Of a stretch of 64,000 nt of DNA, positions 4,011 to 56,627 are shown one piece after another. The stretch lies in the NCBI GenBank assembly GCA_028753945.1, contig JAPNXP010000002.1:15445624-15509623 (forward strand), read 5' to 3'. The position numbers and the translations under genes were made by a program. This DNA comes from Hexactinellida sp. DTS-2022 (taxonomy: Eukaryota > Porifera > Hexactinellida). The first letter of the stretch is position 1; every line of letters starts with the position of its first letter. Below the pieces are notes generated by a model, which searched no databases, had not been told where the DNA came from, and saw only the letters and a program-made list of their open reading frames with translations.

Positions 4011-4464
4011 CCGTTAAGTCCATTAAAAATACAAAATCATTAATGGGTACAACGTCCAAATAGTCACTTGCAAAATTAGTAACAAAGTTATTAAACTTAA
4101 GAAAACATTTGCACCAAAACACCCAAACAATTGTTATAACATAACATGTAATGCCAAGTTATACCATCCCAATAGTTATTTGCATTCTCATAAATAGACT
4201 GACATCAAATAGCTAAGGTTATTCTCAGAATATGTAATTTAATAAGTTATATAATTTAACCCCTATAATCCATTAAACTGGTTGTGCCACATTCCATTTG
4301 AGCTATCTGGTATCCTAGCAGAGCTGTCTCTGCATTAACTAATTATTCACAAATGAAAGTATTTCCTTTCACTACATTCCTGACTGGATGGAGTCACCAT
4401 GTGCATCAGAAGAGGCGGCACACAAACAGATGCCACATTCCACTCAGTTCCACCACCTAGCTCT

Positions 4465-4475
4465 GCTATAAGATA
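4465..4475 (+). promoter_or_regulatory. TATA-like box of NHL gene 1
   Basis: GCTATAAGATA lies about 90 bp before the ATG and is conserved, inverted, upstream of NHL gene 2 (about 48070-48080). Conservation between the duplicates is the support; transcription start is not known. Confidence 0.45.
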
Positions 4476-4558
4476 CGAGACACATTCTCTATAGCATTCT
4501 ACTAACAAACTACTTTCCTTTCCATAGACTAACTAGCTAACTAGCAAATAATAACAAA

Positions 4559-5791
4559 ATGGCAGTTCGATTCCCTGACCCGATACACCCCGTAGACCCT
4601 GTCGAGTTGGAAATACACCAACTGTTCGACCGCATAATTATGTGTGTCCAGCAGCGACGAGTGGCACTCCTAACCACATACCGCGACACACGCGACCAAA
4701 TAGCCGCTAGGCCCATAACCCGAGCGCGAAAAGAACAAGAATTAATCGCACTGAAAACGCAAACCGAACAAAGTCTCCAAATGAACGAACTGAGAGAGAC
4801 CCAGGAGCGAATCCTAGCGGAACTAGAACAAGCGCTAGCAGAGGTGAGGGTACCCCAGCCCGAGACACGCGTGGTGTTCCGAGGCACCTGTGGACACCTG
4901 GAGCAGGTGATCGCAGGTGTGGGAGAGGTAGTCGAGGAGGAGGTGCCCGTTGTACCCCGATATGAAGAAATGAGACCGATTGTAACTGTCGGGAAGACAG
5001 GACTAGCTCCTGGAGAGCTCTTCCATCCTTATGGTGTCGCTATCGATGGGAACACAAATCTAATTTATGTCGCAGAAGGGTTTGGTTCCTGTAGAGTCTC
5101 AATCTTCTCGGAGACAGGCGAATTCCTAAACACTTTCACGAATCAAGCCATGAGAGAGCCATGGGGTATAGCGATCCATCGAAACAACCTGTACGTGACG
5201 GACATAGTAGCACACGCTGTGTTCCGATTCAAAATAGAGGCTGACATGCGTCTCGTCGCTAGCCTAGGGAGTAGGGGATCTGGTGTGGGACAGTTCGATT
5301 GGCCTTGCGGACTCACCGTCTCTACCAACGGAGATGTGTTCGTAGCGGATTGTAACAACAACAGAATCCAAATCCTAGATGACTCCCTACACTTCCAAAG
5401 ATCCATAACGCATGAAACAATGAAACGCCCGTATGACGTTAAACTGACACCAGATGAGGTGTACGTGCTCTGTAGTGACTCTCAGTGCATACTCGTGTTC
5501 TCTCACGCAGGAGAGAAGATACGCTCCCTAATCACACAGGGTCCAGGAATGCAGATAGGATTAGCTGTCTTCTTCTGTTTGGACAGAAAACAGAATTTAC
5601 TGCTCAGTGATTATGATAATAATCAAATTCGAGTATTCTCGAAAGAAGGGACACACCTCCACACTATAGGGGAACCAGGACAAGAAGTGGGAATGTTTCA
5701 TAGGTCTAAAGGAATAGTTCTAACTGAAAATCTAAAGTTAATTATTGTGTCTTCGAGCGACAACTACAGACTACAAATATTTTCCTGTTAA
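4559..5791 (+). CDS. Coiled-coil/NHL-repeat beta-propeller protein, copy 1
   Basis: Intronless, 410 codons, start in the context AACAAAATGG. Residues about 20-100 are charged and heptad-like (probable coiled coil). Residues about 140-410 form a six-bladed NHL propeller, with repeats of the type PGELFHPYGVAID, EPWGIAIHRNNLYVTD, GDVFVADCNNNRIQI and NNQIRVFSKEGT. In animals such propellers usually sit on TRIM proteins and bind RNA or protein; here no RING or B-box precedes the coil, so ubiquitin-ligase activity should not be assumed. No signal peptide or TM segment is evident, so likely cytoplasmic. Copy 2 (46752-47987, - strand) is about 95% identical in residues 1-135 but only about 84% in the propeller. 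Changes are concentrated at equivalent loops of each blade. The duplicated unit includes about 290 bp of upstream DNA. Confidence 0.9.
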   Translation: MAVRFPDPIHPVDPVELEIHQLFDRIIMCVQQRRVALLTTYRDTRDQIAARPITRARKEQELIALKTQTEQSLQMNELRETQERILAELEQALAEVRVPQPETRVVFRGTCGHLEQVIAGVGEVVEEEVPVVPRYEEMRPIVTVGKTGLAPGELFHPYGVAIDGNTNLIYVAEGFGSCRVSIFSETGEFLNTFTNQAMREPWGIAIHRNNLYVTDIVAHAVFRFKIEADMRLVASLGSRGSGVGQFDWPCGLTVSTNGDVFVADCNNNRIQILDDSLHFQRSITHETMKRPYDVKLTPDEVYVLCSDSQCILVFSHAGEKIRSLITQGPGMQIGLAVFFCLDRKQNLLLSDYDNNQIRVFSKEGTHLHTIGEPGQEVGMFHRSKGIVLTENLKLIIVSSSDNYRLQIFSC

Positions 5792-5974: not shown

Positions 5975-8900
5975 ATGTCTACTATATCTAGAAGAAGGAG
6001 ACAGCTTAAAATAAAGGAGAATAATTTGAAATATTTTCTGACCGCAAAGGGGGCCACCGAGGTACCCCCCAAGGGGCTCTCTGTTCGTAGCAACGATAAG
6101 GAGAACTTGGAATGTAAACTGGATGTAGGGAGTAAGCTGACTACTCAGTGCAAGGATTTATTCAATGATAAGGAGGTTAGAGTACAAGTTAGTTACCTTA
6201 TAGGTACATTGGCATTTGTTTACTTGTTTACATTATAGAATGTGTCACCTAACATTGGGACAACAACAACAACAACAACAGAAACACACAACTTGAAACT
6301 AAGGCAGAATTCTAAAAGTATAAAGGGGGGGTATAAGAACATGAACACCCCCCCTATTATTGCCCCCTCTGTTCCCATTGATGGTACCCCAGGGGGCAAG
6401 GGTCCCATTGATGGTACCCCAGGGGGCAAGAGTCCCATTGATGGTACCCAAAGGGGCAAGGGTCCCATTGATGGTACCCCGGTCACTTCGCACCTCTCAA
6501 CTGACGAGGTCACCAACCTACTCACTCAAGAGGGTCAGTTACATATACAGGGTAGCATAGCTATAGTATTGTGGTAATTAAAGAGATACAAATGGTACAT
6601 TTATACAAATATAACTAAACACCATATTTCCTGTATTAGCATTTCCAAATATACTTTGACATGGTAGGTTTCCGATTATGAAAGAAAAATTGGAAATTTG
6701 CAACTATTTTGACATTTTTATCTCCCTAACAATTTCAATACAATTATATTCTATTTCTACGGAGCGTGTAATAGGATAATTTCGACTGCATTAAATTTAG
6801 GAGTTAATCAGTTAAAGATACATAACAATAGTAACAAATCCGGATAATAACCTTAGAAAGGTATTCCGGATAGAAAGTACCGTATATAAAATATCCCTGG
6901 TTACAGGAATATATAAACCGTCATACAACAATACAAAGGATGGTCTGTCACACATTGGTTACCCCTCTCCCTTGGAAGCGTTACGTAACGTTTGGACACC
7001 CCCTATACCAGTGGTCCCACCTAGGGTCCATGTACATATGTAAGGGGTCCACTTAATGTATAATATCATTATAGGGGTCCACTTAATGTATAATATTTAT
7101 GAGTTTACTTATCCACCGATCATCGGCGTTTGTATTAAAAAACCTGGCTACTTTCTATCGATTGTTTTTTTATGTTTATGAAAACACCATCGGTAGAAAC
7201 TAGCCAGGTTATTTAATACAAACGCCGATGATCGGTGGATAAGTAAATTCTTAAAATATTTAATGTTTTGACCACTTTTGTCCAATTTTTAGGTTTAGGA
7301 CAGGGCGGTTTAAACCACCTGGTTTTAACCATTTGTCCAAAACCTACCAACCCTGGTTAGTTGGTATTTGCCCTCAGCTGATGTTTTTATAAACAAAGGG
7401 TCAATTGTCCCAATGTACTCATGGTACCTGGTTACTGTTACTGTCAGCATTTGAATGGGGCTTCACTAATCAGGCTACTCAACTCTTGCCTGGCATTGAA
7501 TGGGACATGTCATATGCGGGCAAATCTGTATAGAGAGCCATGTGACCAACTTATTTAAATAAATATATACTTATACGTATACTACATACATTGTTATGAT
7601 GAATTAATACGTCGTCATGCCTATTCATTTGGAATCGAATTAATTATGACCTGTCACACGGTCATATTTATATGGTTTTCAGGGCCCTTTTGGCCATTAA
7701 ATGCTCCACAAATACTATAAATTGAACCCTGTACTATCTGGCAATTAACCCACCACTAATCTATGATTATGACGTCATTAACCTTGAAACAGGTTCGCGT
7801 GTTACACGCCTGTATAATCACGACATCAAACTTTATGCATGCAATATTCTTGGACGCATACGTATCTCCAGTTGAAGACACATTGCTATCGAAGGGATTG
7901 GTGCCAATGTCCCTATTACCGGTATTCGCCTCCAACACATTAACCGGGGCTTTATTCGGGTCGCTATTAGCCGGACCGCTAAGCGAGTGGTTAGGAATAA
8001 AGTCTATTTTGATAATATTCTCTCCTCTCTCCGTTATAGGCAGTCTCCTGCTTATACTGGCTGTTAATCCGACATCCATGGTTGTGGGACGGGGGCTAAT
8101 AGGTGTGTACGCCGGTTTGGGGCTCTCTTGTTCTCCTGTGTACAACTCGGAAATCGCCCCTCCCCACTTAAAGCAGATTTATGGGTCTGTTTATAATCTG
8201 TCGATTGGCGTTGGTATGAGTCTCTCCTATCTAATGGGGATATGGCTGGATTTTCGTTGGTTGCCGTTAGTGTACTTATCCATGGTTGCATTTATGGTAT
8301 TTAACCTGTTGCTTCTGCCCGAGAGTCCGAAATGGTTGCTTAAGAAAGGTTTGTTGGAATCTGCGAAGAAAGCCCGTGCGTATTATTACGATTCTAACGA
8401 GATTAGTCCCCTTTCCCTTCCTGACCCAGATTGTGTTAACCACACCATGGATTACAACACGTTTGTTAAGCCCTCCCTGAGATCTGATATTTATAACTAC
8501 TTCAAGTGGCCAGTTATAAGGCCCCTATTGGTCTGCTGCACCCTCCAGACATTCAAATGTTCCTCTGGTTACATGTTTCTCATGGTGTACTCCTCACACA
8601 CCCTAAGGTCAGGGGTCAAATTGGACCCTAATGTGGTATCCCTTTTCTCACCTGTTTCCATCATACTTGGCAGCTTAACTTTCCTGTTTGTTATAAAACA
8701 TGTTAATTGGAAACGCCTATTAATGGTGACAACATTTGTACAGATGGTTTGTAATCTCCTTTTAGGCGCCACTCTCCACTTATCCAGTACCATGGCCCCC
8801 TCTACATTCCTAACATTCCTACAGTACGCTCCCGTTGCTCTGACGAGCTGCTTCATGTTTTGCATGGGCCTAGGCTGGGGGTCCTTATCATGGCTTTTGT

Positions 8901-11731
8901 ACGGACAGTTATTACACACCCATTACACACGGGTTTCGGCTGGCATTGCTACCTCCGTGTGCTATCTCTCTGCGTCTCTGAATCAGCTGATCGGTCCACT
9001 TGTGGTGCAGGCGTTTGGGAATCCGGGTCTGTTCTATTCGTACGGGGCTATGTGTTTAGTGGCGCTAGGGTTCCAGTGCTTCTATTAAACACAATGGTAT
9101 TTGTATCTACTCCCTTCGCTGTAGTGTTTATTATGTTTTGATTTATTAGAAATAACTTATATAGAGCTCAGTTTTTCAGTATGTGTATTCAGGCACTGAG
9201 AAAGGTCAGTTTTTCCCAAGCTTTGAAATTGACCTTTAGAAAGTAAGCCTGGGCTTTTAGTATGGGAAAAAATCTGAACTCTACTAGAGCTCAGCTCTAT
9301 ATAAGCATTCTCGATTTATTAACTATTAAACTTATGATATTAATATTATCTCTATTCATTCAGATATCAACTTTATTATAAGATACAGTGGATGCCGGTT
9401 ATAAGAACATCATCGGGAACTGCATATAATGTTCTTATAACCGACATAAATTATATGGGGTATATGGCAACCGTTTTCCAGTATAGTAACAGGATAATTT
9501 CCACTTTACCTCAACTTATTGTCTTTAAATTAATAGAACGAGGTCCCAATTTAATGTTACTATGTATACCGTAGTATACAGTCAGGTCTGCTTATTGTGA
9601 ACAGTTTTTATGCTGCTTAAATTGTAACTTTTTATTATGAACAAGCCCTATATTTAATAACTTACATATAGTTTGTATTAAGTTGAGTTCGCTTATTATG
9701 AAGTCTCTCTATAATGAACACAGTATTTGGTCCCTTGAATGTTCTTAATGGGAACCTGACTGTATTTACTTGCCTAGGAAAGGTTTTGAATCAAGACTTT
9801 ATGTAAAGGCCTTGGATTTCTATAATTAGTATACAATCCTGTCTGGATATCTTCTGTTATTTGATAGTCCGTAATCTAGAAATATTATGCCTTTAGTGTC
9901 TGTATTAATCCTTTCATTAATTGTAATACATATGTAATAGCAATTGCCAGGGTTGCCGTGGGTATGGGAATTCCCATAGGATTCCCATATGGGATGGGAA
10001 TGGGAATTTTTTTTAGCCTATGGCTATGGGAATTCTCACATGTGGGAATTCTCACATGTGGGAATCCTGTGGGAATTCAAATAGGATTAGCAATAGAATT
10101 TCCACAAATTCATATAGATAATTATATTACAATAAAGCATAGTTTTCATTATGGTTGTAGACAAGTATATAAATATACGTACTTCAGGGAATGAAAAGTT
10201 CACGAACGGACAGAATTGACGCAATTCAGTTCATCTTAAATTGACGCACGTTCAGTTCGTTCATGGGCTAACCCGCGTTCGTTCAATCCGTTCAATCCGT
10301 ACAATTAAGTTCATTCAGTTCGTTCAATTCGTTTAGTTCAGTTCGTTCAGTGTACAGTGAGTGGGTCGAACTATTCCGTTTATGATAGACTGTTCGATCC
10401 TCTAAGCTGTTATTGAAGTTCAGGTTAAGAAGCTATAATCTAAGCTAAGAGACATGAGTCCACTAGGGATGTCCGGAATTAGCACTTTTGCAGTCACCTA
10501 TTATATTTAATGGATCTATATTTAAAATTTATCTTTATTCAGTTTAGTTCGTTCAATTCAGTCCGTTCAATTGCCGTTCGGAAATCGTTGTCGTTCGTTC
10601 AGTTCGTTCACCGTGAATTCCTTAAAAGCCCTGCGTTCAGTTCGTTCAGTTCAAGTTCAATAAGTTCGTTCGTGAACCTTTCATTCCCTGACGTGCTTAT
10701 ATATAGTTTGGATTTTATTATAGGAATTTTATTTCCACATGTGGGAATCCTATGGGAATTCCCACAGAAATCCTTTGGGAATGGGATGGGAAGGGAATTA
10801 AAATTCCCTTCCCACGGCAACCCTGGCAATTGCTCTATTAGCAAGTTATTTTCAGTCCCCAAGCGAGTAATTATGTTCCTCTAATAGCAAGTTCGCCTAT
10901 TTAAATAGCAAGCAAATTAGTGCAAAAATGCGACTTGCTATTAGGCGAACACCACTGTAATAACTTTAGATATTTGTTTGTTTGTTTGTTTCTTTGTTTA
11001 TTTGTTTGTTTGTTTGTTTATTTGTTGTTGTTGTTGTTGTTGATTACATATTACCCAGAGCCCGGAGAGAAGTACTATCAGATCCTAGCTGAGCAGAGGA
11101 GAAAGGCACTGAAGGAAACTTTAGCTGAAAACGAAAAAGTTAGTAATTAATCGGACTTATAGTATATACGTATAGCATAGTAAATGTACTATTTATAGAT
11201 TTAATATTCCCCGGAATTATTGATAGGTCTGCTTATAACGAAAACTTTTTATTATGAACAAGCCCTATGGTCCCAATTTAACAACTTAACATAGGGTTTG
11301 TATTTTCCCCCAGAGTACTAAATGCATTAATTATATTATCCGCTTATAACGAATATCCGGATATAACGAAGGAATTTACAGGTCCCAAGCACTTCGTTAT
11401 AACGGGAGTTAACTGTATAATGTCTCTATTATACACACAATATGTGGTCCCTTGAATATTCGTATAATAATTTAACAACTTATGAACACACTGACTATAT
11501 ATACCCTGACTATATGCATACCTCTAGCTGACGAATGAGAATACGGAGCTGAGAGAGCTATCAGCTGTTCTCCAGGGACAGCTGGACTCAGCTTTGGAGC
11601 TGGTGAGATTATACGAGAAGATTATAGAGAATAGCAGCAGTTCCGATAAAGTTATAGAGAATAGCAGCAGTTCCGAGATTATTATAGAGAATAACAGCAG
11701 TTCCGATACAGGAGAGACACCCGATAATTAA
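5975..11731 (+). CDS. GMNN: Geminin, DNA replication licensing inhibitor
   Basis: Binds CDT1 and blocks MCM loading; nuclear, normally degraded by APC/C. Exons 5975-6175, 6239-6533, 11059-11138 and 11528-11731 join in frame to about 259 residues (vertebrate geminin is about 210). The diagnostic segment is EKYYQILAEQRRKALKETL followed by AENEK and LTNENTELRELSAVLQGQL, matching the geminin YWKEVAEKRRKALYEAL-ENEKL coiled coil. The C-terminus ends in an acidic serine-rich tail. Exon 2 contains four near-identical 30-bp in-frame units (PIDGTPGGKG) and exon 4 three units (IIENSSSSD-like), both absent from vertebrate geminin. No classical RxxL D-box is obvious in the N-terminal part I can read. Intron 2 is 4.5 kb and holds a complete transporter gene on the same strand. 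The splice 6533/6534 is G|GTCAGT and restores phase 1 exactly. Confidence 0.88.
6361..6480 (+). repeat. In-frame 30-bp coding repeat in geminin exon 2
   Basis: Four tandem copies of a unit beginning CCCATTGATGGTACCCCAG, encoding PIDGTPGGKG with small variations. Confidence 0.9.
6534..7762. other. Geminin intron 2, 5' portion
   Basis: AT-rich, non-coding. Contains a small repeat (AGGGGTCCACTTAATGTATA twice near 7038-7092) and a large foldback at about 7107-7250. I see no exon. Confidence 0.6.
7107..7250. repeat. Long inverted repeat (foldback)
   Basis: The arm starting ACTTATCCACCGATCATCGG and continuing GCGTTTGTATTAAA is repeated inverted, ending CCGATGATCGGTGGATAAGT. The arms are about 55 bp and the loop about 30 bp. 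Could be a foldback MITE; it lies in geminin intron 2 upstream of the nested transporter. Confidence 0.8.
7763..9088 (+). CDS. MFS sugar-transporter-like protein (SLC2-type), intronless
   Basis: Multi-pass membrane transporter of the major facilitator superfamily, 441 residues, about 12 hydrophobic segments. SLC2/sugar-porter marks are present: GPLSEWLGIKS after TM2 (the G-x-D/E-R/K loop), GRGLIGVYAGLGLSCSPVY with YNSEIAP in TM4-5, PESPKWLLKKGL at the start of the central loop, and a long cytoplasmic loop. SLC2 proteins move hexoses or related polyols, but the substrate cannot be read here. The C-terminal half lacks a clear PETKG motif, and the protein ends a few residues after TM12, shorter than typical GLUTs (about 490). 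A Met at codon 3 is an alternative start. It lies wholly inside geminin intron 2 on the same strand; no introns of its own, so a retrogene origin is possible. Confidence 0.82.
   Translation: MIMTSLTLKQVRVLHACIITTSNFMHAIFLDAYVSPVEDTLLSKGLVPMSLLPVFASNTLTGALFGSLLAGPLSEWLGIKSILIIFSPLSVIGSLLLILAVNPTSMVVGRGLIGVYAGLGLSCSPVYNSEIAPPHLKQIYGSVYNLSIGVGMSLSYLMGIWLDFRWLPLVYLSMVAFMVFNLLLLPESPKWLLKKGLLESAKKARAYYYDSNEISPLSLPDPDCVNHTMDYNTFVKPSLRSDIYNYFKWPVIRPLLVCCTLQTFKCSSGYMFLMVYSSHTLRSGVKLDPNVVSLFSPVSIILGSLTFLFVIKHVNWKRLLMVTTFVQMVCNLLLGATLHLSSTMAPSTFLTFLQYAPVALTSCFMFCMGLGWGSLSWLLYGQLLHTHYTRVSAGIATSVCYLSASLNQLIGPLVVQAFGNPGLFYSYGAMCLVALGFQCFY
9154..9306. mobile_element. MITE family M (CTTATATAGAGCTCAG termini)
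   Basis: Begins CTTATATAGAGCTCAG and ends inverted CTGAGCTCTATATAAG-like. Long arms meet around GGCACTGAGAAAGGTCAG...TGACCTTTAGAAAG. Other copies at 12607-12774 and 30102-30275. Three near-identical copies in one window suggest recent activity. Confidence 0.8.
9307..11058. other. Geminin intron 2, 3' portion
   Basis: Contains a truncated E MITE (9384-9485), a D MITE (9581-9764), a GGGAATTC/CCCATGGG-rich low-complexity block (9955-10080, inverse-related to 10730-10820), a GTTCAGTTCGTTC-rich block (10195-10680), then TTTG and GTT microsatellites up to the exon 3 acceptor. No coding exon seen. Confidence 0.6.
9955..10830. repeat. Large palindromic repeat with GTTCGTTCA core
   Basis: The outer parts (GGGAATTCCCATAGGATTCC near 9968 and GGGAATCCTATGGGAATTCC near 10743) are inverse-related. 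The interior has many TTCAGTTCGTTCA words and inverse AACGGACAG/GAACGAAC words. The overall inverted architecture of about 870 bp suggests a transposable element remnant without coding capacity. Confidence 0.6.
11222..11515. mobile_element. Composite: family C MITE inserted in family D MITE
   Basis: Family D sequence (GAACAAGCCCTATGGTCCC) stops after AGGGTTTGTATT. C-type sequence follows (CCGCTTATAACGAATATCCGG, GTTAACTGTATA), then D resumes (TGTCTCTATTATA, GGTCCCTTGAAT). Confidence 0.65.
11618..11705 (+). repeat. In-frame repeat in geminin exon 4
   Basis: Three copies of a 30-bp unit beginning ATTATAGAGAATAGCAGC, encoding IIENSSSSD-like acidic/serine repeats. Confidence 0.85.
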
Positions 11732-12301: not shown

Positions 12302-20347
<8,046 letters not shown>

Positions 20348-25932: not shown

Positions 25933-25985
25933 TTAACTAACTAGGTGGTATCTGGCTTGAATATCTCTAATATCTATCCTGTGTG
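25708..25985. repeat. About 73-bp tandem repeat copying the 3' end of the 7-TM gene
   Basis: Three to four units with AACTAG, (GGTTTCTGGCTT)GAATATCTATAATATTTATC and CAGTTAATACAACGCTTGC. The GGTWTCTGGCTTGAATATCT part corresponds to the last codons of the neighbouring CDS. Confidence 0.75.
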
Positions 25986-27012
25986 CCCTCCTCCTAGCTC
26001 GCCCCTGCCTAAGGTGCCTCCACAGGATTCGTATATGCACCGTGAGCAGTACCCAGGTGCCCCCTAGAGCCATTACGTTGGTTAGGACATGGTAGAACAC
26101 TGTGTTAGTGGTGCTAAGCGGGAGTTGAGAGGTTATACCATGGGTGTAGGAGGAGTTAATACCGTAGAACACTAATTCCATGCAGGGAGTTCTCACTATA
26201 ACCTCAAAAGCAGATAGGATTAGTACGTACGTGAGGGAGGCAATAAGTATGCTAGCACATGTGACATACAGTATGGAGTTTGTCTTGTACTCCCTACACA
26301 TTCCATCTAACCTCTTGTGTGACTGGGGATCTTCAAACCAAGCGTCTAGCCGTCTCCACTTCAGCAGCAGATACAGACTACGGCTGTACTTAATGTACAG
26401 ACACAGATGAATAGGGAATAGGACTAGTGTTAGAGTAAAAACGACAAATATAAGAGCCCGCCAATAGGCTATGCTTATCCATATAAGGATCAGCTGTATT
26501 AGCAGCCAGACTAGCAACACCTTATCTCTCCTAGCTAGGCTAACCACACGCTTAATGGCGTAGGCATGGGACAGGTAGGAAGTCAGTGTGTGGATAAGAG
26601 ACAGGAATATTGTTATCGAAGACACGGCTAGCAATACAACTGGCCGGAAGGAATGTAGATCTTTCGTATAACGAATCGGAAAAGGACAATTGTTGTCTGT
26701 GTCTACATGAACGAATATGTGGAATAAGCCGACAACAACAACACACGAGTAAACAACAGCCTCGGAACCCGATATAGCCGCTATGAAAACAGACTTTATA
26801 TAGTCTACCCTTGCATTTGTCAGTTCCTCATAACACCTCTCTTCTCTCTGTTTCTTCAGATAGTGTATCTTCTTTCCCAGCTCTCTCACTCGGGACACAA
26901 AGTAGACACACCATACGGCAGCTAGCAACACTATTCCTAGTGTAGCTATTCCTGTGAATATCTGTATGATACACACGGCTGTATTACTTGAATCTCTGCA
27001 ACTTGATAGCAT
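25933..27012 (-). CDS. Orphan seven-helix membrane protein, intronless
   Basis: 359 residues with seven hydrophobic segments (approximately residues 10-38, 70-100, 122-148, 168-190, 192-212, 248-276, 312-338, counted from the Met). The second and third are separated by a Cys-containing polar stretch (DTDNNCPFPIRY). An NSS sequon lies between helices 6 and 7 (YGINSSYTH). The tail is short and arginine-rich (RRRAHRIDIRDIQARY). I do not recognise a DRY, NPxxY or other GPCR family signature, so a receptor role is only suggested by topology; an insect-type gustatory/odorant receptor-like fold or another polytopic family is equally possible. Single exon, opposite strand to its neighbours, about 1.6 kb divergent from septin. 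Its stop-codon region is copied in the adjacent downstream array. Confidence 0.75.
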   Translation of the reverse strand: MLSSCRDSSNTAVCIIQIFTGIATLGIVLLAAVWCVYFVSRVRELGKKIHYLKKQREERCYEELTNARVDYIKSVFIAAISGSEAVVYSCVVVVGLFHIFVHVDTDNNCPFPIRYTKDLHSFRPVVLLAVSSITIFLSLIHTLTSYLSHAYAIKRVVSLARRDKVLLVWLLIQLILIWISIAYWRALIFVVFTLTLVLFPIHLCLYIKYSRSLYLLLKWRRLDAWFEDPQSHKRLDGMCREYKTNSILYVTCASILIASLTYVLILSAFEVIVRTPCMELVFYGINSSYTHGITSQLPLSTTNTVFYHVLTNVMALGGTWVLLTVHIRILWRHLRQGRARRRAHRIDIRDIQARYHLVS

Positions 27013-37600: not shown

Positions 37601-40051
37601 ATAAATTATATAGGGTATATGGCAACCGTTTTCCAGTATAATGTTCTTATATCCGGCATCTATTGTATTGAAAAGGTTTTGAAGGGGACTGAAATAGTGT
37701 TCCTACTAACGAAGTTCTACTGTATATCTAGGTGCCCATAATTCCCCTATATGAACCCTGTACGTATATGATACCCCCACCCCTAAGGTATAAGGTATAA
37801 GTTATCCCTAAGGTATACACCCCTATAAGAACGCTATATGTATATGATACCCCTGGCCCTATGTCCCCTAAGGAACAGGTCTCACCATATATAACCCATT
37901 GGTTACATACTATCCCTAAGGTATACACCCCTATATGATACCCCTGGCCCTATGTCCCCTAAGGAACAGGTCTCACCATATATAACCCATTGGTTACATA
38001 CTATCCCTAAGGTATACACCCCTATATGATACCCCTGGCCCTATGTACCCCTGGCCTATGGTCCCTAAGTCCCTAGTCTCACCATCCGCTTCCCGAGGGC
38101 GTCGCAGTACTGGAAGTACGCGGGCGGGACCTCGTTGGTGACGTCACAGAATATGCAGGTGTAGGAGGCCCCGCCCCCCGAGAAGCTGTTGAAGGGATTC
38201 ATGTAGGCCTTGCAGCGCTTGCACCTGATTGGTCCCTCCGGCCCGTGGTCAACCAGTGGCAGCTATAAATAGAGCAACGTAGCTAGTTACAAAGCAATAA
38301 TGTTTCGTGGCTACATTTACACTAAAATTCTGAAAATCCAGAAAATAATATTTAGGTGAAACTAATGTTCTCAGCGACACTAAACATACCGAAATTCCCT
38401 AAATTAATGTAACAAATGCCATTTTATTGACGGCGCTTATTATATTAACTACGTTAGCTATAGAGCATTCCTATGTACCTGCTGGTTGTCGGGGTCGGTG
38501 GCGAGGGGCTGTATGATTAGTCCGGCGACCAGTTTGGACTCCCGAACCATCTCGGCTGAGGCCGGGAGGGTGTAGAGGGAGCTCCTTATGAACCGCGGGG
38601 AGGCACTGCCCGTGTCCCTAATGGGACAGGAGACCAGGGCCCCGGGGGGCGGCACGCGGGACCCCGTGAGGTACTCGTTTGAGACCCAGCGCTCCCTCTC
38701 CACTGCCAGGACCTCTACCTAGAGACAGCTCACATGCCATTCTACCGGGGGGTTGCTAGGTAACTAACCACGCTGGGAATGGAGTCCGGTGTTACCCGCG
38801 GCTGCGAAGTGACGGGTGCAAATTGTGGGGGCTGGGGGGTAGAAGGGGGCTGGTTAAACCCCATTGGTTGGGTAGGGGGGTGGTTAAAACCCATAGGTTG
38901 GTTAGGGGGCAAATTGAGATCCATTGGTTGGTTTGTAGGAGGCTGATTAAAACCCATTGGTTGGCTAGTAGGGGGCAAATTCAATCCCATTTGCATTTGT
39001 TGATAAGTAAGGGGCAAATTAATTCCCGTTGGTTGGCTAGTAGGGGGCAAATTCATTCCCGTTGGTTGGCTAGTAGGGGGCAAATTCATTCCCATTGGTT
39101 GGCTAGTAGGGGGCAAATTCAATCCCATTTGCATTTGTTGATAAGTAAGGGGCAAATTCATTCCCATTGGTTGGCTAGTAGGGGGCAAATTCATTCCCGT
39201 TGGTTGGCTAGTAGGGGGCAAATTCATTCCCATTGGTTGGCTAGTAGGGGGCAAATTCATTCCCATTGGTTGGCTAGTAGGGGGCAAATTCATTCCCATT
39301 GGTTGGTTTGTAGGGGGCAAATTCATTCCCATTGGTTGGCTAGTAGGGGGAAAATTTAGTCCCGTTGGTTGGGTAGAAGGCTGATTAAAACCAATTGGTT
39401 GGTTAGTAGAAGGGATGTTGATAGGCTGGTTAGTTTGGTTGGCTATCGGTTGGCTAGAGGGCATACTGAACTGGTCAGGAGGGAGAGAAGGGACTCCTGT
39501 TGTGAGGGAGACAGGAACCTGGCTGAACTGGTTGGGGACTGGAGTTTGCTGGTTGGGGACATGAGCACGGATTCCTATTCTGGGTGCGCTAGAGGGGAGG
39601 GGCGGATTGAGGGGCGGGAAGAGGGCGTCGGGGGGCGAGGGGGCCTGGAGAGGGGACAGGGTCCGGTAGAGGGGCTGGTTCTGACTGGCTGACTGGGATA
39701 TAGTTAGACCTATCAGCTGAGAGGAGATAGGTTGCGATGGGTGCTTTGGTGTCAGCTGAGGGGTGAGGCTCTGGGAGGGCAGGAGGGCGGGAGGGAACTT
39801 GGGGGGCAGGGTGGGGGTGTAGGTGCCCCCCTGGGGGGGACCGGGTCTGTTGAAGTGGGACTGTGGTTGCATTTGTGGGTACCCCTGCATTCCTGGTGTT
39901 GCTATGGCAGCAGGATGAGGTATGCCCGGGCTATCTAGAAAGGAACTGTAAATAAATATACGCCTTATAATAGTGGCACCAACTCACCAAGTGGTATATT
40001 GGCGTTGAAATGTGTCCCCTGTTGCGACATGAAGTGAGTGTTTGTGTTCAT
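33125..40051 (-). CDS. SEC24: SEC24 (SEC24C/D-type), COPII cargo adaptor
   Basis: Inner-coat subunit that selects cargo at ER exit sites with SEC23. Thirteen exons (transcript order): 40051-39988, 39934-38769, 38718-38479, 38262-38083, 37369-37198, 36875-36564, 36298-36056, 35632-35400, 35158-35072, 34784-34614, 34488-34360, 33954-33760, 33394-33125; 1153 residues, phases consistent throughout. Proline-rich disordered N-terminus with 11-residue repeats (NLPPTSQPMGM). Zinc finger IRCKRCKAYMNPF...YTCIFCDVTNEVPP, trunk (SVGSYEL, GLVLYDTQAYFFNL, LFPQRRGAGC), VDLFLLPSAY, FDAVMRVRTSPG, beta-sandwich and helical domains, gelsolin domain with LGTDGQQLVLWVG and terminal SYVDGTCMLHREIKKLLS. Closest to vertebrate SEC24C/D. 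Intron 4 contains repeats that copy the exon 4 donor. Confidence 0.95.
33476..33640. mobile_element. MITE family C (GTTATAACGAA words)
   Basis: CAGTAAACTCCCGTTATAA at the start and CACTTCGTTATAACGAG at the end, with internal CTTATAACGAAATG and CGGATATAACGAAG. Other copies: 32123-32205 (short), 42800-42954, 60271-60425, 61260-61409. Confidence 0.75.
34800..34960. repeat. TTTG microsatellite in SEC24 intron
   Basis: (TTTG)n with TTAG and TCTG interruptions. Confidence 0.85.
37453..37725. mobile_element. Family B MITE with a family E MITE inserted at TA
   Basis: B begins CAGTAGAACCTCGTTAG; within ATTTG|TA a complete E element (CAGTGGATGCCGG to GGCATCTATTG, 37541-37666) is inserted. B then resumes TA|TTGAAAAGGTTTTG and ends AAGTTCTACTG. 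Removing E and one TA restores B. Confidence 0.85.
37760..38090 (-). repeat. About 90-bp repeat carrying the SEC24 exon 4 donor
   Basis: Two full units plus a partial one, with CCCCTAAGGAACAGGTCTCACCAT. On the coding strand each has ATG|GTGAGAC, the same as the genuine donor at 38083/38082. Confidence 0.8.
38935..39365 (-). repeat. 33-bp in-frame repeat in the SEC24 N-terminus
   Basis: About a dozen units encoding NLPPTSQPMGM with variants (NLPLTYQQMQMGL). Includes two larger blocks repeated together. Confidence 0.92.
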
Positions 40052-46751: not shown

Positions 46752-47987
46752 TTATTGACAAGAAAATATTTGTAGCCTGTAGTTGTTGCACCTAGACACA
46801 ATAATTAATTTCATATTTTCAGTTAGAACTATTCCTTGAGGCCTATGAAACATTCCCACTTCTTGTCCTGGTTCCCCTATAGTGTGGAGGTGTGTCCCTT
46901 CTTTCGAGAATACTCGAATTTGATTATTCTCCATATCACTGATCAGTAAATTCTGTTTTTTGTCCAAACAGAAGAAGTTAGCTAATCCTATCTGCATTCC
47001 TGTACCCTGTGTGATTAGGGAGCGTATCTTCTCTCCTGCGTGAGAGAACACGAGTATGCAGGGAGAGTTATAACAGAGCACGTACACCTCATCTGGTGTC
47101 AGTTTAACGTCATGCGGGTCTTTCATTGTTTGGTGCGTTATGGATCTTTGGAAGTGTAGGGAGTCATCTAGGACTTGGATTCTGTGGTTGATCCAATCCG
47201 CTACGAACACATCTCCGTTGGTAGAGACTGAGAGTCCCATAGGGCAATCGAACTGTCCCGCACCAGATCCCTCACTCCCTAGGCTAGCGACGAGACGCAT
47301 GTCAGCCTCTAATTTGAATCGGAACACAGCGTCTACTCCTCTGTCCGTCACGTACAGGTTGTCTCGATGGATCGCTATACCCCATGGCTCTCTCATGTCT
47401 CGATTTGTGAAGGTGTTTAGGAATTCGCCTGTCTCCGAGAAGATTGAGACTCTACAGGAACCTGGCCCTTCTGCGACATAAATTAGATTTGTGTTCTCAT
47501 CGATAGCGACACCACGAGGCTTCCAGAGCTCTCCAGGAGCTTGTCCTTTCTTCCCGACAGCTACAATCGGTCTCATTTGTTGATATCGGGGTACAACGGG
47601 CACCTCCTCCTCGACTACCTCTCCCACACCTGCGATCACCTGCTCCAGGTGTCCACAGGTGCCTCGGAACACCACGCGTGTCTCGGGCTGGGGTACCCTC
47701 ACCACTGCTAGCGCTTGTTCTAGTTCCGCTAGGATTCGCTCCTGGGTCTCTCTCAATTCGTTCATTTGGAGGAGACGCTCCGTTTCGGTTTTGAGTGCGA
47801 TTAATTCTTCTTCTTTTCGCGCGCGCTCTATGGGCCTAGCGGCTATTTGGTCGCGTGTGTCGCGGTATGTGGTTATGAGTGCCACTCGTCGCTGCTGGAC
47901 ACACATAATTATTCGGTCGAACAGTTGGTGTATTTCCAACTCGACAGGGTCTACGGGGTGTATCGGGTCAGGGAATCGAACGGCCAT
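46752..47987 (-). CDS. Coiled-coil/NHL-repeat beta-propeller protein, copy 2
   Basis: Intronless, 411 codons, same architecture and start context as the gene at 4559-5791: coiled coil about residues 20-100, six NHL blades about 140-410. About 52 amino-acid differences separate the pair; only about 7 lie in residues 1-135. In the propeller they recur at the x-P-x-G entry (HPYG to KPRG, WPCG to CPMG, RPYD to DPHD, RSKG to RPQG). They recur again at the loop after the inner strand (DIVAH to DRGVD, DCNNN to DWINH, CSDSQ to CYNSP, DYDNN to DMENN, SSSDN to SRCNN). Silent differences are few in the parts I aligned. Extra C-terminal Gln before the stop. The same-strand eS7 gene begins 88 bp downstream. 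Function unknown; surface recognition is inferred. Confidence 0.9.
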   Translation of the reverse strand: MAVRFPDPIHPVDPVELEIHQLFDRIIMCVQQRRVALITTYRDTRDQIAARPIERARKEEELIALKTETERLLQMNELRETQERILAELEQALAVVRVPQPETRVVFRGTCGHLEQVIAGVGEVVEEEVPVVPRYQQMRPIVAVGKKGQAPGELWKPRGVAIDENTNLIYVAEGPGSCRVSIFSETGEFLNTFTNRDMREPWGIAIHRDNLYVTDRGVDAVFRFKLEADMRLVASLGSEGSGAGQFDCPMGLSVSTNGDVFVADWINHRIQVLDDSLHFQRSITHQTMKDPHDVKLTPDEVYVLCYNSPCILVFSHAGEKIRSLITQGTGMQIGLANFFCLDKKQNLLISDMENNQIRVFSKEGTHLHTIGEPGQEVGMFHRPQGIVLTENMKLIIVSRCNNYRLQIFSCQ

Positions 47988-47999
47988 TTTGTTATTATT

Positions 48000-48275
48000 T
48001 GCTAGTTAGCTAGTTAGTGCTATTGAAAGGAAAGTTGTTAGTAGAATGCTATAGAGAATGTGTCTCGTATCTTATAGCAGAGCTAGGTGGTGGAACTGAG
48101 TGGAATGTGGCATCTGTTTGTGTGCCGCCTCTTCTGATGCACATGGTGACTCCATCCAGTCAGGAATGTAGTGAAAGGAAATACTTTCATTTGTGAATAA
48201 TTAGTTAATGCAGACAGCTCTGCTAGGATACCAGATAGCTCAAATGGAATGTGGCACAACCCAGTTTAATGGATT
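48000..48275 (-). repeat. Inverted duplicate of the NHL gene promoter region
   Basis: Reverse complement of about 4268-4558, nearly identical, including the TATA-like GCTATAAGATACGAG and ATTCCACTCAGTTCCACC. Homology ends near AATCCATTAAACTGG. Confidence 0.88.
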
Positions 48276-48895
48276 CCAGGAGTTTAATTACATATTATGA
48301 GATCCTAGGAGCTAATTCCAACCATTTGGAATGTTCCAATTCTGTAGTGTTTAAAACAAATAATATTAACGGCTTATTTGCCTTAGATTTCACATTAAAT
48401 TGTGGACATTGTGTAGATTATATTTTCGTTGCATTATTTGTAATTAATAATAGTGTTGTTTACGGCATCAGAAGTTTGTTAAACCGGCATTTGTTTATTC
48501 TTTAGCCAACAGAAAAAAGTAAGGTGGTGGCTTAATTAGCAACCATCAAATTGGCTTTGTCGAGCCTGCAAACAAATTTTATAATATAGACCCAGCTTCC
48601 AAAAGTTGAATTTTTGATGTTAAAATGACGTTCCAGTGCCTGAAAATTACATTAGAAAAGGTGATATATAATAATTCCAATAATATTTCTTTAAATAAAT
48701 AAATAGAGTCTTGTTACATAGTACGTATTCTGATAAGGGACACATATTACGGTCCCTATTATGCACCCATGAAAACAGCAGCTGTTAGCTTAAATAATAT
48801 TATTTGCAACATATGTATGTACATAACAATAACAATGTTGGGATATTTACAAACTATAAAGGTGGAATTAGGAATATACAAATATTATATAATTT
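48276..48895. other. Spacer between NHL gene 2 promoter and EB1
   Basis: AT-rich, with a fragment of the intronic GTTAAAATGAC...ATTAGAAAAGGTG repeat also seen in catalase introns. Nothing coding seen. Confidence 0.5.
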
Positions 48896-49340: not shown

Positions 49341-52300
49341 GTATACGCTAGCTACACATCTCACCTGCTGCTGTATGATGGAAAGCACGCCCGCCAGATG
49401 TCCCGTGTCCTCCCCTGCCTTATCCTCGCAGAACTTCCTGACGGCCTCCAGCGTTATGGCCATCCTGTCCAGGCGGGAGGCCCCCAGCATCAGCTCCGCG
49501 TTAAGCTCACGTTTCTAACAACACAGTATTAGTATTAGCTACAGTAGAACATTCTAGAATAGTTGTATTAGTATTTACAGTACAGTGGAACCTCTATAAG
49601 TGGGGGAGCTGGGACGGGGAAAATTTCAATTGCCCCCCATTCCCCGGTTATAAAATTCAAAACCTTAACTATGACGCGTTAACAGACCTTAACTATGACG
49701 TAATTCCATAGTTAACTATGACGCGTTAACAGACCTTAACTATGACGCGTTAACAGACCTTAACTATGACGCGTTAACAGACCTTAACTATGACGCGTTA
49801 ACAGACCTTAACTATGACGTGTTAACAGACCTTAACTATGACGCGTTAACAGACCTTAACTATGACGCGTTAACAGACCTTAACTATGACGCGTTAACAG
49901 ACCTTAACTATGACGCGTTAACAGACCTTAACTATGACGCGTTAACAGACCTTAACTATGACGCGTTAACAGACCTTATCTATGACGTAATTCCATAGTT
50001 AACTATGACGTGTTAACAGACCTTAACTATGACGTGTTAACAGACCTTAACTATGACGCGTTAACAGACCTTAACTATGACGTGTTAACAGACCTTAACT
50101 ATGACGCGTTAACAGACCTTAACTATGACGCGTTAACAGACCTTATCTATGACGTGTTAACAGGCCTTAACTATGACGCGTTAACAGGCCTTAACTATGA
50201 CGTATTACCAGACCTTAACTATGACGCGTTAACAGACCTTAACTATGACGCGTTAACAGACCTTAACTATGACGCGTTAACAGACCTTAACTATGACGTA
50301 ATTCCATAGTTAACTATGACGCGTTAACAGACATTAACTATGACGCGTTAACAGACCTTAACTATGACGCGTTAACAGACCTTAACTATGCCGTAATTCC
50401 ATAGTTAACTATGACGTGTTAACAGACATTAACTATGACGCGTTAACAGACCTTAACTATGACGCGTTAACAGACCTTAACTATGACGCGTTAACAGACC
50501 TTATCTATGACGCTTTAACAGGCCTTAACTATGACGCGTTAACAGGCCTTAACTATGACGTATTACCAGACCTTAACTATGACGCGTTAACAGACCTTAA
50601 CTATGACGCGTTAACAGACCTTAACTATGACGCGTTAACAGACCTTAACTATGACGTAATTCCATAGTTAACTATGACGCGTTAACAGACATTAACTATG
50701 ACGCGTTAACAGACCTTAACTATGACGCGTTAACAGACCTTAACTATGACGTAATTCCATAGTTAACTATGACGTGTTAACAGACATTAACTATGACGCG
50801 TTAACAGACCTTAACTATGACGCGTTAACAGACCTTAACTATGACGCGTTAACAGACCTTATCTATGACGCTTTAACAGACCTTAACTATGACGTAATTC
50901 CATAGTTAACTATGACGTGTTAACAGACATTAACTATGACGCGTTAACAGACCTTAACTATGACGCGTTAACAGACCTTAACTATGACGCGTTAACAGAC
51001 CTTAACTATGACGCGTTAACAGACCTTAACTATGACGTGTTAACAGACCTTAACTATGACGCGTTAACAGACCTTAACTATGACGTAATTCCATAGTTAA
51101 CTATGACGTGTTAACAGACCTTAACTATGACGCGTTAACAGACCTTAACTATGACGTAATTCCATAGTTAACTATGACGTGTTAACAGACCTTAACTATG
51201 ACGCGTTAACAGACCTTAACTATGACGTAATTCCATAGTTAACTATGACGTGTTAACAGACCTTAACTATGACGCGTTAACAGACCTTAACTATGACGCG
51301 TTAACAGACCTTAACTATGACGTAATTCCATAGTTAACTATGACACGTTAACAGACCTTATCTATGACGTAATTCCATAGTTAACTATGACGTGTTAACA
51401 GACCTTAACTATGACGCGTTAACAGACCTTAACTATGACGTAATTCCATAGTTAACTATGACGTGTTAACAGACCTTAACTATGACGCGTTAACAGACCT
51501 TATCTATGACGTAATTCCATAGTTAACTATGACGTGTTAACAGACATTAACTATGACGCGTTAACAGACCTTATCTATGACGTAATTCCATAGTTAACTA
51601 TGACGTGTTAACAGACATTAACTATGACGCGTTAACAGACCTTATCTATGACGTAATTCCATAGTTAACTATGACGTGTTAACAGACCTTATCTATGACG
51701 TATTAACAGACCTTATCTATGACGTAATTCCATAGTTAACTATGACGCGTTAACAGACCTTAACTATGACGTAATTCCATAGTTAACTATGACGCGTTAA
51801 CAGACCTTAACTATGACGCGTTAACAGACCTTAACTATGACGTGTTAACAGACCTTAACTATGACGCGTTAACAGACCTTAACTATGACGCGTTAACAGA
51901 CCTTAACTATGACGTGTTAACAGACCTTAACTATGACGCGTTAACAGACCTTAACTATGACGTAATTCCATAGTTAACTATGACGTGTTAACAGACCTTA
52001 ACTATGACGCGTTAACAGACCTTAACTATGACGTAATTCCATAGTTAACTATGACGTGTTAACAGACCTTAACTATGACGCGTTAACAGACCTTAACTAT
52101 GACGCGTTAACAGACCTTAACTATGACGTAATTCCATAGTTAACTATGACACGTTAACAGACCTTATCTATGACGTAATTCCATAGTTAACTATGACGTG
52201 TTAACAGACCTTAACTATGACGCGTTAACAGACCTTAACTATGACGTAATTCCATAGTTAACTATGACGTGTTAACAGACCTTAACTATGACGCGTTAAC

Positions 52301-54785
52301 AGACCTTATCTATGACGTAATTCCATAGTTAACTATGACGTGTTAACAGACATTAACTATGACGCGTTAACAGACCTTATCTATGACGTAATTCCATAGT
52401 TAACTATGACGTGTTAACAGACATTAACTATGACGCGTTAACAGACCTTATCTATGACGTAATTCCATAGTTAACTATGACGTGTTAACAGACCTTATCT
52501 ATGACGTATTAACAGACCTTATCTATGACGTAATTCCATAGTTAACTATGACGCGTTAACAGACCTTAACTATGACGTAATTCCATAGTTAACTATGACG
52601 CGTTAACAGACCTTAACTATGACGCGTTAACAGACCTTAACTATGACGTGTTAACAGACCTTAACTATGACGCGTTAACAGACCTTAACTATGACGCGTT
52701 AACAGACCTTAACTATGACGTGTTAACAGACCTTAACTATGACGCGTTAACAGACCTTAACTATGACGCGTTAACAGACATTAACTATGACGCGTTAACA
52801 GACCTTAACTATGACGTAATTCCATAGTTAACTATGACGTGTTAACAGACATTAACTATGACGCGTTAACAGACCTTATCTATGACGTAATTCCATAGTT
52901 AACTATGACGCGTTAACAGACCTTAACTATGACGCGTTAACAGACCTTAACTATGACGCGTTAACAGACCTTATCTATGACGTATTAACAGACCTTAACT
53001 ATGACGCGTTAACAGACCTTAACTATGACGTATAAACAGACCTTAACTATGACGTAATACAATAGTTAACTATGACGTAATACCATAGTTAACTATGAAG
53101 TATAAACAGAACTGTAGCTATGACGAATTAACAGAACTTACATATGATGTATTAACTATGACGTATACAATAGTTAACTATGACGTAATACCAAAGTTAA
53201 CTATGACATGTAACAGACCTTAACTATGACGTATTACCGTATTTAACAGAACTAATACCATGACGTATAACTATGACGTATACGTACCTCGCTATCCAGT
53301 GCGCTGATCCTCAGGGTGAGCTCCTGGTTCCGGGCCTTGGCCTCGGTGAGTCGGTCTCGCATGGAGGGGTCCCCTGGGGCCGCGGGGTACACGGGGGCCT
53401 GAGGACTAGCGGACCGCGACTCCCGGACAGGGGCCAGCTTGTCGGAGCTGGTGTAGTAGGAATCCGGAGTCTTGCACACCGTGGCGGCTCTCTGGAGAGT
53501 GGCCTTCTCTATAAGCACAGTAATGTAAAGCTACTATACTATTGTACGAGCAACCATGGATATGACATGTATACTGAACTTTAAATAAGTAAGCAACAGT
53601 AGAAATAAAGTTATTATTTTCTCCGCTTAATGGGGTCAAAATTTACCGGATTTATAGGACGGAATAACATTTTGACTCAAAATATTTTGGTTATTAGATT
53701 TCTCCGTTTAACTCTAAATAAGTAAGCAACAGTAGAAATAAAGTTATTATAAAGATGTTCTTTTCTCCGCTTAATGGGGTCAAAATTACCGGATTTATAG
53801 GACGGAATAACATTTTGACTCAAAATATTTTTGGTTATTTAATTTCTCCGTTTAATCGGTTCAAACTACGGTTAAACAAGCAGAGTCGACTGTATTTATA
53901 ATAGACCAATGAGGTACCTCTCTCCTCCTTTGGGTCATAGGCCGAGGGCCACTCTACGAAGTTGGCGTCGTAAAACCATTTGAACCAAACTAGGAATTCG
54001 TAGTTCTCCATGAAGTTCCCTTTGCAAAGCTTTTCCAGTGGAATTTTCTAAAATAAATAAAGTAACACCTCTCTATAAGGTCCCATGTCTGCCGTTGCAT
54101 AGTGACAGGTAGGTAGGGAAGGAATGTATATTACCTTTTTAACATCCAGCTCCGAGAAGCATTTTTGCAGAACTTTAAAGTTGTCGATGTACTGGTGCTC
54201 CACAGTGGCACTCCACCTGACCCGCCGGAGTGATATGTTATCTGTAAACAACAACAACAACAACAGGGTAAACAAGAGTACACATAAGTAAACAAATGTG
54301 ATGTGTTGGTGAACTTACTGGGAAATAGTACGTGCATGAATTGACAGTATACTGCTCCTATAAAAGAAATATAATAATCTTATTAATTCATACTCGTTTG
54401 TTTGTATGTTTGTTGATTAGTTACTTAGTTAGTTAGTTAGTTAGTTGATTTGTTTGTTTGTTGATTTAGTTTGCTTGTCTGTGTTTGTTTGTTTATTAAT
54501 TTGTTTGTTTGTTTGTTTGTTTGTTTGTTTGTTTGTTTGTTTGTTTATTTGTTTGTGTATTAGTATATAGTGTATTAGTGTATTTGTGCATTAGTGTGTC
54601 TGTTGATTAGTTAGTTAATTAATGTTAACTAGGTGCGTACCTGTGCACATTTCCTCTATCTTGACGAGGTTGAGTTGGAGAGACCCATTTATCCAGGAGA
54701 GATACTCGGTGCGACCCGTAAGACTCGTGTTCGGCTTAATGAGATTGGTGGGGGGAGGGTTCACAGCTTTGATTGATTTAGACAT
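48896..54785 (-). CDS. MAPRE: EB1 family microtubule plus-end tracking protein
   Basis: Tracks growing microtubule plus ends and recruits CAP-Gly and SxIP proteins. Exons in transcript order: 54785-54641, 54357-54319, 54241-54135, 54047-53918, 53508-53288, 49514-49365, 48943-48896; 279 residues (human EB1 268), phases consistent. N-terminal calponin-homology domain: TEYLSWINGSLQLNLVKIEEM, GAVYCQFMHVLFP, VEHQYIDNFKVLQKCF, EKLCKGNFMENYEFLVWFKWF, YDANF. Proline/serine linker, then the coiled-coil EB homology region (RDRLTEAKARNQELTLRISA, ELNAELMLGASRLDRM). The 48-bp last exon encodes MEPQQLESGDLYETY, preserving the C-terminal aromatic (EEY-like) end that binds CAP-Gly domains. Intron 5 (3.8 kb) is almost all satellite. 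The last exon is inferred from splice site, phase and the tail motif. Confidence 0.92.
48944..49135. repeat. AAACAAGT minisatellite in EB1 intron 6
   Basis: About fourteen TAAACAAG units. On the coding strand it reads (TTTACTTG)n running directly into the terminal exon's acceptor TTTGTTTGTAG. Confidence 0.88.
49660..53280. repeat. 3.6-kb satellite in EB1 intron 5 (two monomer types)
   Basis: Monomer A is 24 bp (TTAACTATGACGYGTTAACAG + ACCT junction). Monomer B is 23 bp (TTAACTATGACGTAATTCC + ATAG). They are mixed in irregular order, with about 150 monomers in total. Larger blocks are duplicated: diagnostic variants GACACGTTAACAG (51342 and 52148) and GACGTATTAACAG (51697 and 52503) are both exactly 806 bp apart. 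TATTACCAGACC recurs 358 bp apart (50203, 50561). Monomers decay toward the EB1 exon 5 donor. Frames reading LTDLNYDA are artefacts. Confidence 0.95.
53605..53900. mobile_element. Family F MITE fragments in EB1 intron 4
   Basis: Two direct copies of TTCTCCGCTTAATGGGGTC...GGATTTATAGGACGGAATAAC and the end AGAGTCGACTGTA. Confidence 0.65.
54410..54600. repeat. TTTG/TTAG microsatellite in EB1 intron 1
   Basis: (TTAG)n, then (TTTG)n over about 60 bp, then TTAGTGTA units. Confidence 0.85.
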
Positions 54786-56480: not shown

Positions 56481-56627
56481 ATAAGGTCCCCTGTATGTAT
56501 ATGATTGGGATATAGATTGCGTCATTAATTAACAGGAGTAGCATGGCATACATTGAGAGAGTTTAAGTAATGGGCCTATAACATATGCTATAAATAAAAA
56601 TGTTATAAAATAGTTGTATAAAATAGA

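Follow-up and report, generated by a model that had tools for sequence, protein, structure and literature searches.

Replacement-biased diversity on one face of a large family of NHL propellers in a glass sponge: candidates for a recognition repertoire

How animals without antibodies, and sponges especially, recognize many microbes or distinguish self from non-self remains an open question. It is raised here by two genes in a 64,000-nucleotide stretch of the genome of a hexactinellid sponge (Hexactinellida sp. DTS-2022), the whole of which is referred to below as the window. Their products are closely similar, and the preliminary description of gene 1 considered their differences to be the pattern expected of positive selection on a ligand-binding face. 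The two genes, their upstream blocks (the block of gene 1 probably comprises a promoter and a 5' leader) and the two parts of gene 1 are as follows:

4559..5791, + strand: gene 1, single open reading frame of 410 aa, coiled coil and six-bladed NHL propeller
46752..47987, − strand: gene 2, single open reading frame of 411 aa, coiled coil and six-bladed NHL propeller
4248..4558, + strand: gene 1 upstream block, 311 bp, 95.5% identical to that of gene 2
47988..48294, − strand: gene 2 upstream block, 307 bp collinear with that of gene 1
4559..4963, + strand: gene 1 residues 1–135, long helices and a short linker fold, under purifying selection (pN/pS of 0.50 across 31 genes)
4964..5788, + strand: gene 1 residues 136–410, NHL propeller with a hypervariable upper face

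Both proteins match the NHL family of Pfam (PF01436), with E values of 8e-22 for gene 1 and 9e-26 for gene 2. Their alignment is gap-free and contains 52 residue differences, seven in residues 1–135 and 45 in residues 136–410, exactly the split that had been estimated. Few silent changes had been noticed beside many replacements in the propeller, and NG86 counting gave 8.8 silent and 59.2 replacement differences (dS 0.049, dN 0.099, ratio 2.02), a shortfall of silent changes with a binomial p of 0.039. In residues 1–135, 10 silent and 10 replacement differences were counted (ratio 0.31), so the coiled-coil part is, as described, nearly unchanged, and the same is true of the promoter region, given the identity of the upstream blocks. 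In a structural model (see below), the pair differs at 30 of 92 residues in ‘upper’ loops versus 5 of 50 in ‘lower’ loops (Fisher p = 0.0019). Collinear homology was also sought in the downstream flanks of the two genes, and none was found. The two genes are not a simple duplicate pair, as had been supposed; the closest relative of gene 1 lies toward the opposite end of the same contig and is 90% identical to it, versus 87% for gene 2.

The rest of the window has several other features. A sugar transporter/MFS gene in a single frame (7763–9088) lies about 2 kb downstream of gene 1, and a tubulin gene (18984–20347) occupies two frames about 45 bases apart, the gap being most likely one small intron. 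The − strand at 25933–27012 encodes a protein of 359 aa that has several hydrophobic stretches and matches no Pfam family. A 3.5 kb tandem array (49662–53147; about 143 copies of a 24-base unit) lies just to the right of gene 2, and tandem repeats at 55573–56492 and 38903–39380 leave long open frames (245 aa and 382 aa); a weak Pfam match to ActA at 38745–39890 is probably a composition effect.

The two genes belong to a large family. The genome (112.4 Mb in 18 contigs) contains at least 390 distinct loci of the coiled-coil and six-bladed NHL type, distributed over all 18 contigs, as determined by pooled searches of the genome with its own sequences (493 rows, with starts within 1300 bases merged and a few short fragments omitted). 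This count is a lower bound, because the search scored only the best candidates, and a few of the loci contributed by a general NHL search may encode other NHL proteins. Some copies are broken, and at least 329 of the 390 loci have an open frame of at least 380 codons with no reported stop; intact frames typically have 400–440 codons, without introns across the matched part. Sixty-two coding sequences were extracted: 31 in group A, which includes both window genes, 25 in group B and six in neither (L043, with a divergent 3' end, L061, L080, L081, L111 and L112). L049 and L114 were excluded as truncated, and copies containing stops were likewise set aside. A more distant subfamily, family C, is about 33% identical to the window gene, and seven of its 57 genes were sampled.

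The window is on contig C11, at 54 to 118 kb from its end, and the closest members of the family have similar positions: 27 of 30, counting both window genes, are within 500 kb of a contig end, against an expectation of 16%. Among the best 64 matches to the window gene, some of them partial, 46 are so placed. If loci are grouped into clusters separated by more than 300 kb, the fractions near contig ends are 7 of 9 for the closest 30 and 9 of 23 for the best 64. Protein kinases, used as a control, have such a position in 35 of 127 cases (28%), itself above 16%. General NHL matches are near contig ends in 50 of 146 cases and the whole family in 117 of 390 (30%), and family C shows no excess (10 of 57). 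As neither the whole family nor family C is more end-placed than the kinases, the pull toward contig ends is a property of the window's own branch rather than of the family; these controls have no bearing on the selection result described below. A shared satellite repeat is present at 15 of 20 contig-end stretches (ends of contigs C1, C4–C7 and C10–C18, among L085–L104), and a search for TTAGGG in the outer 300–500 bases of the 20 contig ends, one of which reads N at both printed ends, found none. These genes thus lie near contig ends, and their location may be subtelomeric. Away from contig ends, 23 family C loci are clustered at C1:13670008–13802245. Elsewhere, the SRCR domain has at least 150 matches in the genome, and on contig C13 (1250394–1291140) it recurs every 7.66 kb or so, six times and with equal scores, which is likely to be a recent tandem array of a scavenger-receptor gene.

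Groups A and B differ in genomic location, with 19 of the 25 genes of B and only one of the 31 genes of A on contigs C7 and C14. Over codons 1–300 they nevertheless form one population, silent divergence between the groups being like that within them. Family members therefore swap sequence between chromosomes. Linkage between biallelic sites is correspondingly short: r2 in A is 0.25 for sites less than 20 bp apart, 0.08 at 20–50 bp and 0.03–0.05 beyond, and over the same distance classes in B it is 0.17, then 0.05, then 0.04–0.06. In the 3' part, near-fixed differences between A and B number 80; they begin at nucleotide 912, with none before nucleotide 900, indicating that two different 3' modules have been joined to one common 5' part. 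In gene 1, this module is as follows:

5470..5788, + strand: gene 1 3' module (gene nucleotides 912–1230), sequence unlike between groups A and B

The flanks of the coding sequences are asymmetric. When 30 genes were compared in 870 ordered pairs, the upstream flanks were homologous in 754 pairs (median 279 bp) and the downstream flanks in six. The upstream block of gene 1 has at least 40 genomic matches; it is matched collinearly in 27 of 29 relatives, at 88.9–98.9% identity, and its last 279 bp or more are common to 20 of the 29 relatives examined. Such a pattern, together with the single open frame and the presence of loci on all 18 contigs, could be produced if a selfish element, or a captured one, had been dispersed by transposition as a promoter-plus-ORF cassette, in which case the copies would not constitute a receptor family at all. 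One viral-contig scan for a viral relative of gene 1 yielded one pattern match and no relative. A passenger of this kind would not be expected to display a site-specific replacement excess on one face of its product, and this origin is considered highly improbable.

The replacement excess follows the architecture of the propeller. Variability in the 31 genes of group A recurs in each blade, beside the entry proline and about 16–17 residues further on, at the following sites of gene 1:

5024..5032, + strand: blade 1 entry, codons 156–158, x-P-x with x hypervariable
Codons 200–202, 248–250, 290–292, 335–337 and 382–384: the other blade entries, of the same x-P-x class
5474..5479, + strand: blade 4 B–C loop, codons 306–307, hypervariable
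Codons 175, 216–217, 265–266, 352–353 and 399–401: other hypervariable B–C loops, of the same class

The recurrence at equivalent positions of successive blades, first proposed from the pair, thus holds in 31 genes. Some of the entry positions originally listed do not: residues 196–197 and 383 differ in the pair but are off the repeated offset, the family-wide entry positions on either side of the proline (P-1/P+1) being 156/158, 200/202, 248/250, 290/292, 335/337 and 382/384. Face sites were defined by six offsets (-10, -8, -1, +1, +16 and +17) from the blade-entry proline or its equivalent (157, 201, 249, 291, 336 and 383). These offsets were picked after inspection of group A, in which they account for 23 of the 36 most variable propeller sites; in group B they account for 20 of 36.

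Selection was assessed by pairwise counts rather than by site models on a single tree, because linkage decays within about 50 bp and groups A and B share a pool. In group A, pN/pS was 2.05 (CI 1.39–2.99) at face sites, 0.69 (0.52–0.92) in the rest of the propeller and 0.50 (0.32–0.80) in the N-terminus. The corresponding values for group B were 2.22 (1.33–4.09), 1.24 (0.97–1.61) and 0.53 (0.34–0.80), the ratio outside face sites being not clearly below 1. Group B was considered as an independent replicate of A and rejected as such, as it shares the pool of A up to codon 300 and is independent only from codon 301; in codons 301–410 of B, the contrast between face and other sites is weak (1.76 vs 1.48). 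The weight of an independent test is therefore carried by family C, in which pN/pS was 3.16 at the face offsets and 0.48 both in the rest of the propeller and in the N-terminus. Six of these seven genes come from the cluster on contig C1 and one from C11, and they have the same face-specific diversity. The variable sites are therefore clustered rather than scattered, as had been claimed, at the same blade offsets in 31, 25 and seven distant-subfamily genes, and mainly on one face.

For the propeller as a whole, the expectation of a dN/dS above 1 was borne out in B (1.5, bootstrap 1.21–1.92) but not in A, in which the ratio is about 1 (1.05, 0.81–1.34); the face positions carry most of the excess. 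Mean dS and dN in group A are 0.091 and 0.044 for the N-terminus and 0.097 and 0.102 for the propeller; in group B they are 0.097 and 0.049, and 0.086 and 0.132, respectively. As silent divergence is similar in the two parts (0.091 and 0.097 in A), the conservation of the N-terminus is not simply due to a younger age. Pair by pair, dN is higher than dS in the propeller for 284 of 465 comparisons within A and 289 of 300 within B; for the N-terminus, the corresponding counts are 26 of 465 and 16 of 300. Pairs are non-independent in all these counts. A relaxation of constraint, with the upper face drifting freely in redundant copies, could be envisaged given the many copies, some of them broken, and the whole-propeller ratio of about 1 in group A. 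Free drift predicts a ratio near 1 at the face too, where values of 2 to 3 are observed; it accounts neither for the distinctive composition of the face (see below) nor for the long open frames retained at 329 or more loci, and is quite unlikely. The concentration of the replacement excess at face positions, with ratios above 2 in all three sets and clustering on one face, supports the original proposal of positive selection on a candidate ligand-binding face.

Silent diversity is also higher at the face codons of group A (0.17 vs 0.08), a difference that local mutation bias could also produce. It is conceivable, therefore, that targeted mutation (local hypermutation or template-directed change) generates the diversity and that selection is secondary, especially as third-base diversity is 0.22 at face codons versus 0.07 elsewhere and change is limited to short blocks. 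Diversity at the first, second and third positions of face codons in A is, however, 0.35, 0.36 and 0.22 (0.07, 0.05 and 0.07 at other propeller codons); if a mutator acted by itself, silent third bases would not be expected to be spared. The third base is, moreover, mostly of one or two kinds per site at the eight sites displayed, and path counting through codons with multiple hits inflates the silent count. A mutator-only origin was set aside on the basis of the diversity by codon position, and targeted mutation as the main source is very unlikely.

An AlphaFold model of the gene 1 protein, based on a 46-sequence alignment, has a mean pLDDT of 87.6, mostly above 90 in the propeller. Helices are predicted at residues 14–72 and 76–97, followed by a six-bladed propeller. 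Loops were classed by strand order, as upper (D–A and B–C) or lower (A–B and C–D). Median per-site pN is 0.079 in upper versus 0.024 in lower loops in group A (p 7e-8) and 0.258 versus 0 in group B (p 1e-9; 86 of the 92 upper-loop sites have data in B). Upper loops hold 32 of the 40 most variable sites in A and 34 in B, and the strand sites among these 40 are at P+1, near the start of strand A, in five of seven cases (A) and five of six (B). In the model, the variable offsets are loops of one face, and the other face is conserved.

The closest solved fold is the NHL domain of zebrafish LIN41 bound to RNA (TM-score of 0.89, by target, for the TRIM71 NHL domain). Fourteen RNA-contacting residues are named for this protein in the available excerpt of PMC5908797. 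Placed in the TRIM71 alignment according to spacing and residue type, they fall at offsets -2, -1, +16, +17, -1, +16, +17, -1, +1, +17, +1, +16, -1 and +17, so that 13 of the 14 are at the four offsets most variable in group A. Because the positions are the same, the upper face of the sponge propellers would be the ligand-binding face. The same coincidence, and the fact that the best fold match is a complex with RNA, raise the possibility that these propellers act as regulators that bind RNA, as TRIM71/LIN41 and Brat do, and have diversified for many RNAs, viral RNA for example; the excerpt puts the difference in RNA binding between LIN41 and Brat down to the fast evolution of the domain (PMC5908797). 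The LIN41 pocket is, however, described there as highly positively charged, whereas the mean net charge of the 24 face residues is -0.3 in A (-5 to +3) and -0.6 in B (-3 to +1), and lysine makes up only 1.2% (A) and 1.1% (B) of face residues. RNA binding as the function of the family thus seems unlikely. Tryptophan, tyrosine, arginine and histidine account for 33% of the 24 face sites in A, versus 10.6% elsewhere in the propeller, and for 35% versus about 11% in B. We infer that this composition suits a broad binder of proteins or peptides better than a basic RNA pocket. No two of the 31 A genes, or of the 25 B genes, have the same face; the most similar two differ at 11 of 24 residues in A and at only two of 24 in B.

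By its Pfam match, six-bladed model and fold similarity to TRIM71, the family belongs to the NHL-repeat propeller class. The model has a long coiled-coil helix ahead of the NHL domain, as in TRIM-NHL proteins, but neither protein has a Pfam match to the RING and B-box domains of this class (class VII TRIM); B-box matches number 20 genome-wide. Pfam also yielded neither the RING/B-box and B30.2 combination of finTRIMs nor a NACHT or NB-ARC domain with WD40 or LRR repeats, as in HNWD or NLR proteins, in either protein. LIN41/TRIM71, Brat and TRIM2/3 are conserved regulators with RING/B-box or filamin domains and few genes per genome. They share with the family the NHL propeller fold and the same ligand-contact positions on the upper face (PMC5908797, excerpt).

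What the family does have are the marks of a recognition repertoire, namely many paralogues and replacement-biased variation on a candidate binding face. In Podospora anserina, het-d and het-e, of the HNWD (NACHT-WD40) type, are allorecognition genes with a WD40 propeller, and positive selection acts in every WD40 repeat on codons 7/9, which flank a conserved codon of the d–a loop, and on codons 25/27 of the b–c turn (PMC1805685, excerpt). Paired selected codons per repeat on an upper platform, and concerted evolution spreading variants between loci, are thus common to HNWD genes and the sponge family. The fungal genes differ from it, according to the same excerpt, in having WD40 rather than NHL repeats and a NACHT domain, in numbering 10 rather than hundreds, and in exchanging whole repeat units within and between loci (PMC1805685). 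Teleost finTRIMs also form a large family with near-identical N-terminal regions, clusters on different chromosomes and a positively selected C-terminal recognition domain, but, in a vertebrate with 84 zebrafish genes, they have RING/B-box and B30.2 domains rather than an NHL propeller (PMC2657112, excerpt). The zebrafish NLR-B30.2 family resembles the sponge family in its size (nearly 400 genes), domain-dependent gene conversion and positively selected recognition domain, and differs in its NACHT and B30.2 domains and in having the majority of its genes on one chromosome arm (PMC4852459, excerpt). Neither a diversified NHL family nor subtelomeric sponge families were found among the best matches listed in the open-licence PMC literature, and the excerpts available of PMC8242945, PMC3386278 and PMC3503706 contain no such diversified NHL family.

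Taken together, the two genes are probably members of a large germline-diversified intracellular recognition repertoire in which the upper face binds ligand; on the best reading, by analogy, this repertoire would work like fish finTRIMs or fungal HNWD genes. The conserved N-terminal coiled coil would serve in oligomerization or effector coupling. As Pfam detects no RING, B-box or signalling domain, the protein may multimerize or partner another coiled-coil protein. The upper face of the propeller, by the parallel with LIN41, would bind varied ligands, with selection favouring difference, and exchange of short tracts between chromosomes would keep the frame uniform while reshuffling face variants. 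The ligands would be variable non-self or self-marker molecules, most likely microbial or viral proteins, protein ligands being favoured because the face is rich in Tyr, Trp, Arg, His, Ser and Asn, with almost no net charge. By analogy with HNWD, finTRIM and NLR-B30.2 genes, use in immunity or allorecognition would be the most likely reason for the diversity.

It is possible, though somewhat doubtful, that the animal inherits hundreds of NHL propellers as an antibody-like library, in which continuing conversion between chromosomes shuffles short face segments and selection keeps the 24-residue faces distinct. In such a library, the window's own branch would convert near chromosome ends, and the receptor would be built on the RNA propeller of TRIM proteins. 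Lamprey VLRs, beside the fungal HNWD genes, are a parallel to a propeller library of this kind. For sponges, the family provides concrete, testable candidate receptors with named face residues. If the recognition reading is true, paired variable upper-loop residues spread by gene conversion would have been reached both with NHL repeats, in an animal, and with WD40 repeats, in a fungus.
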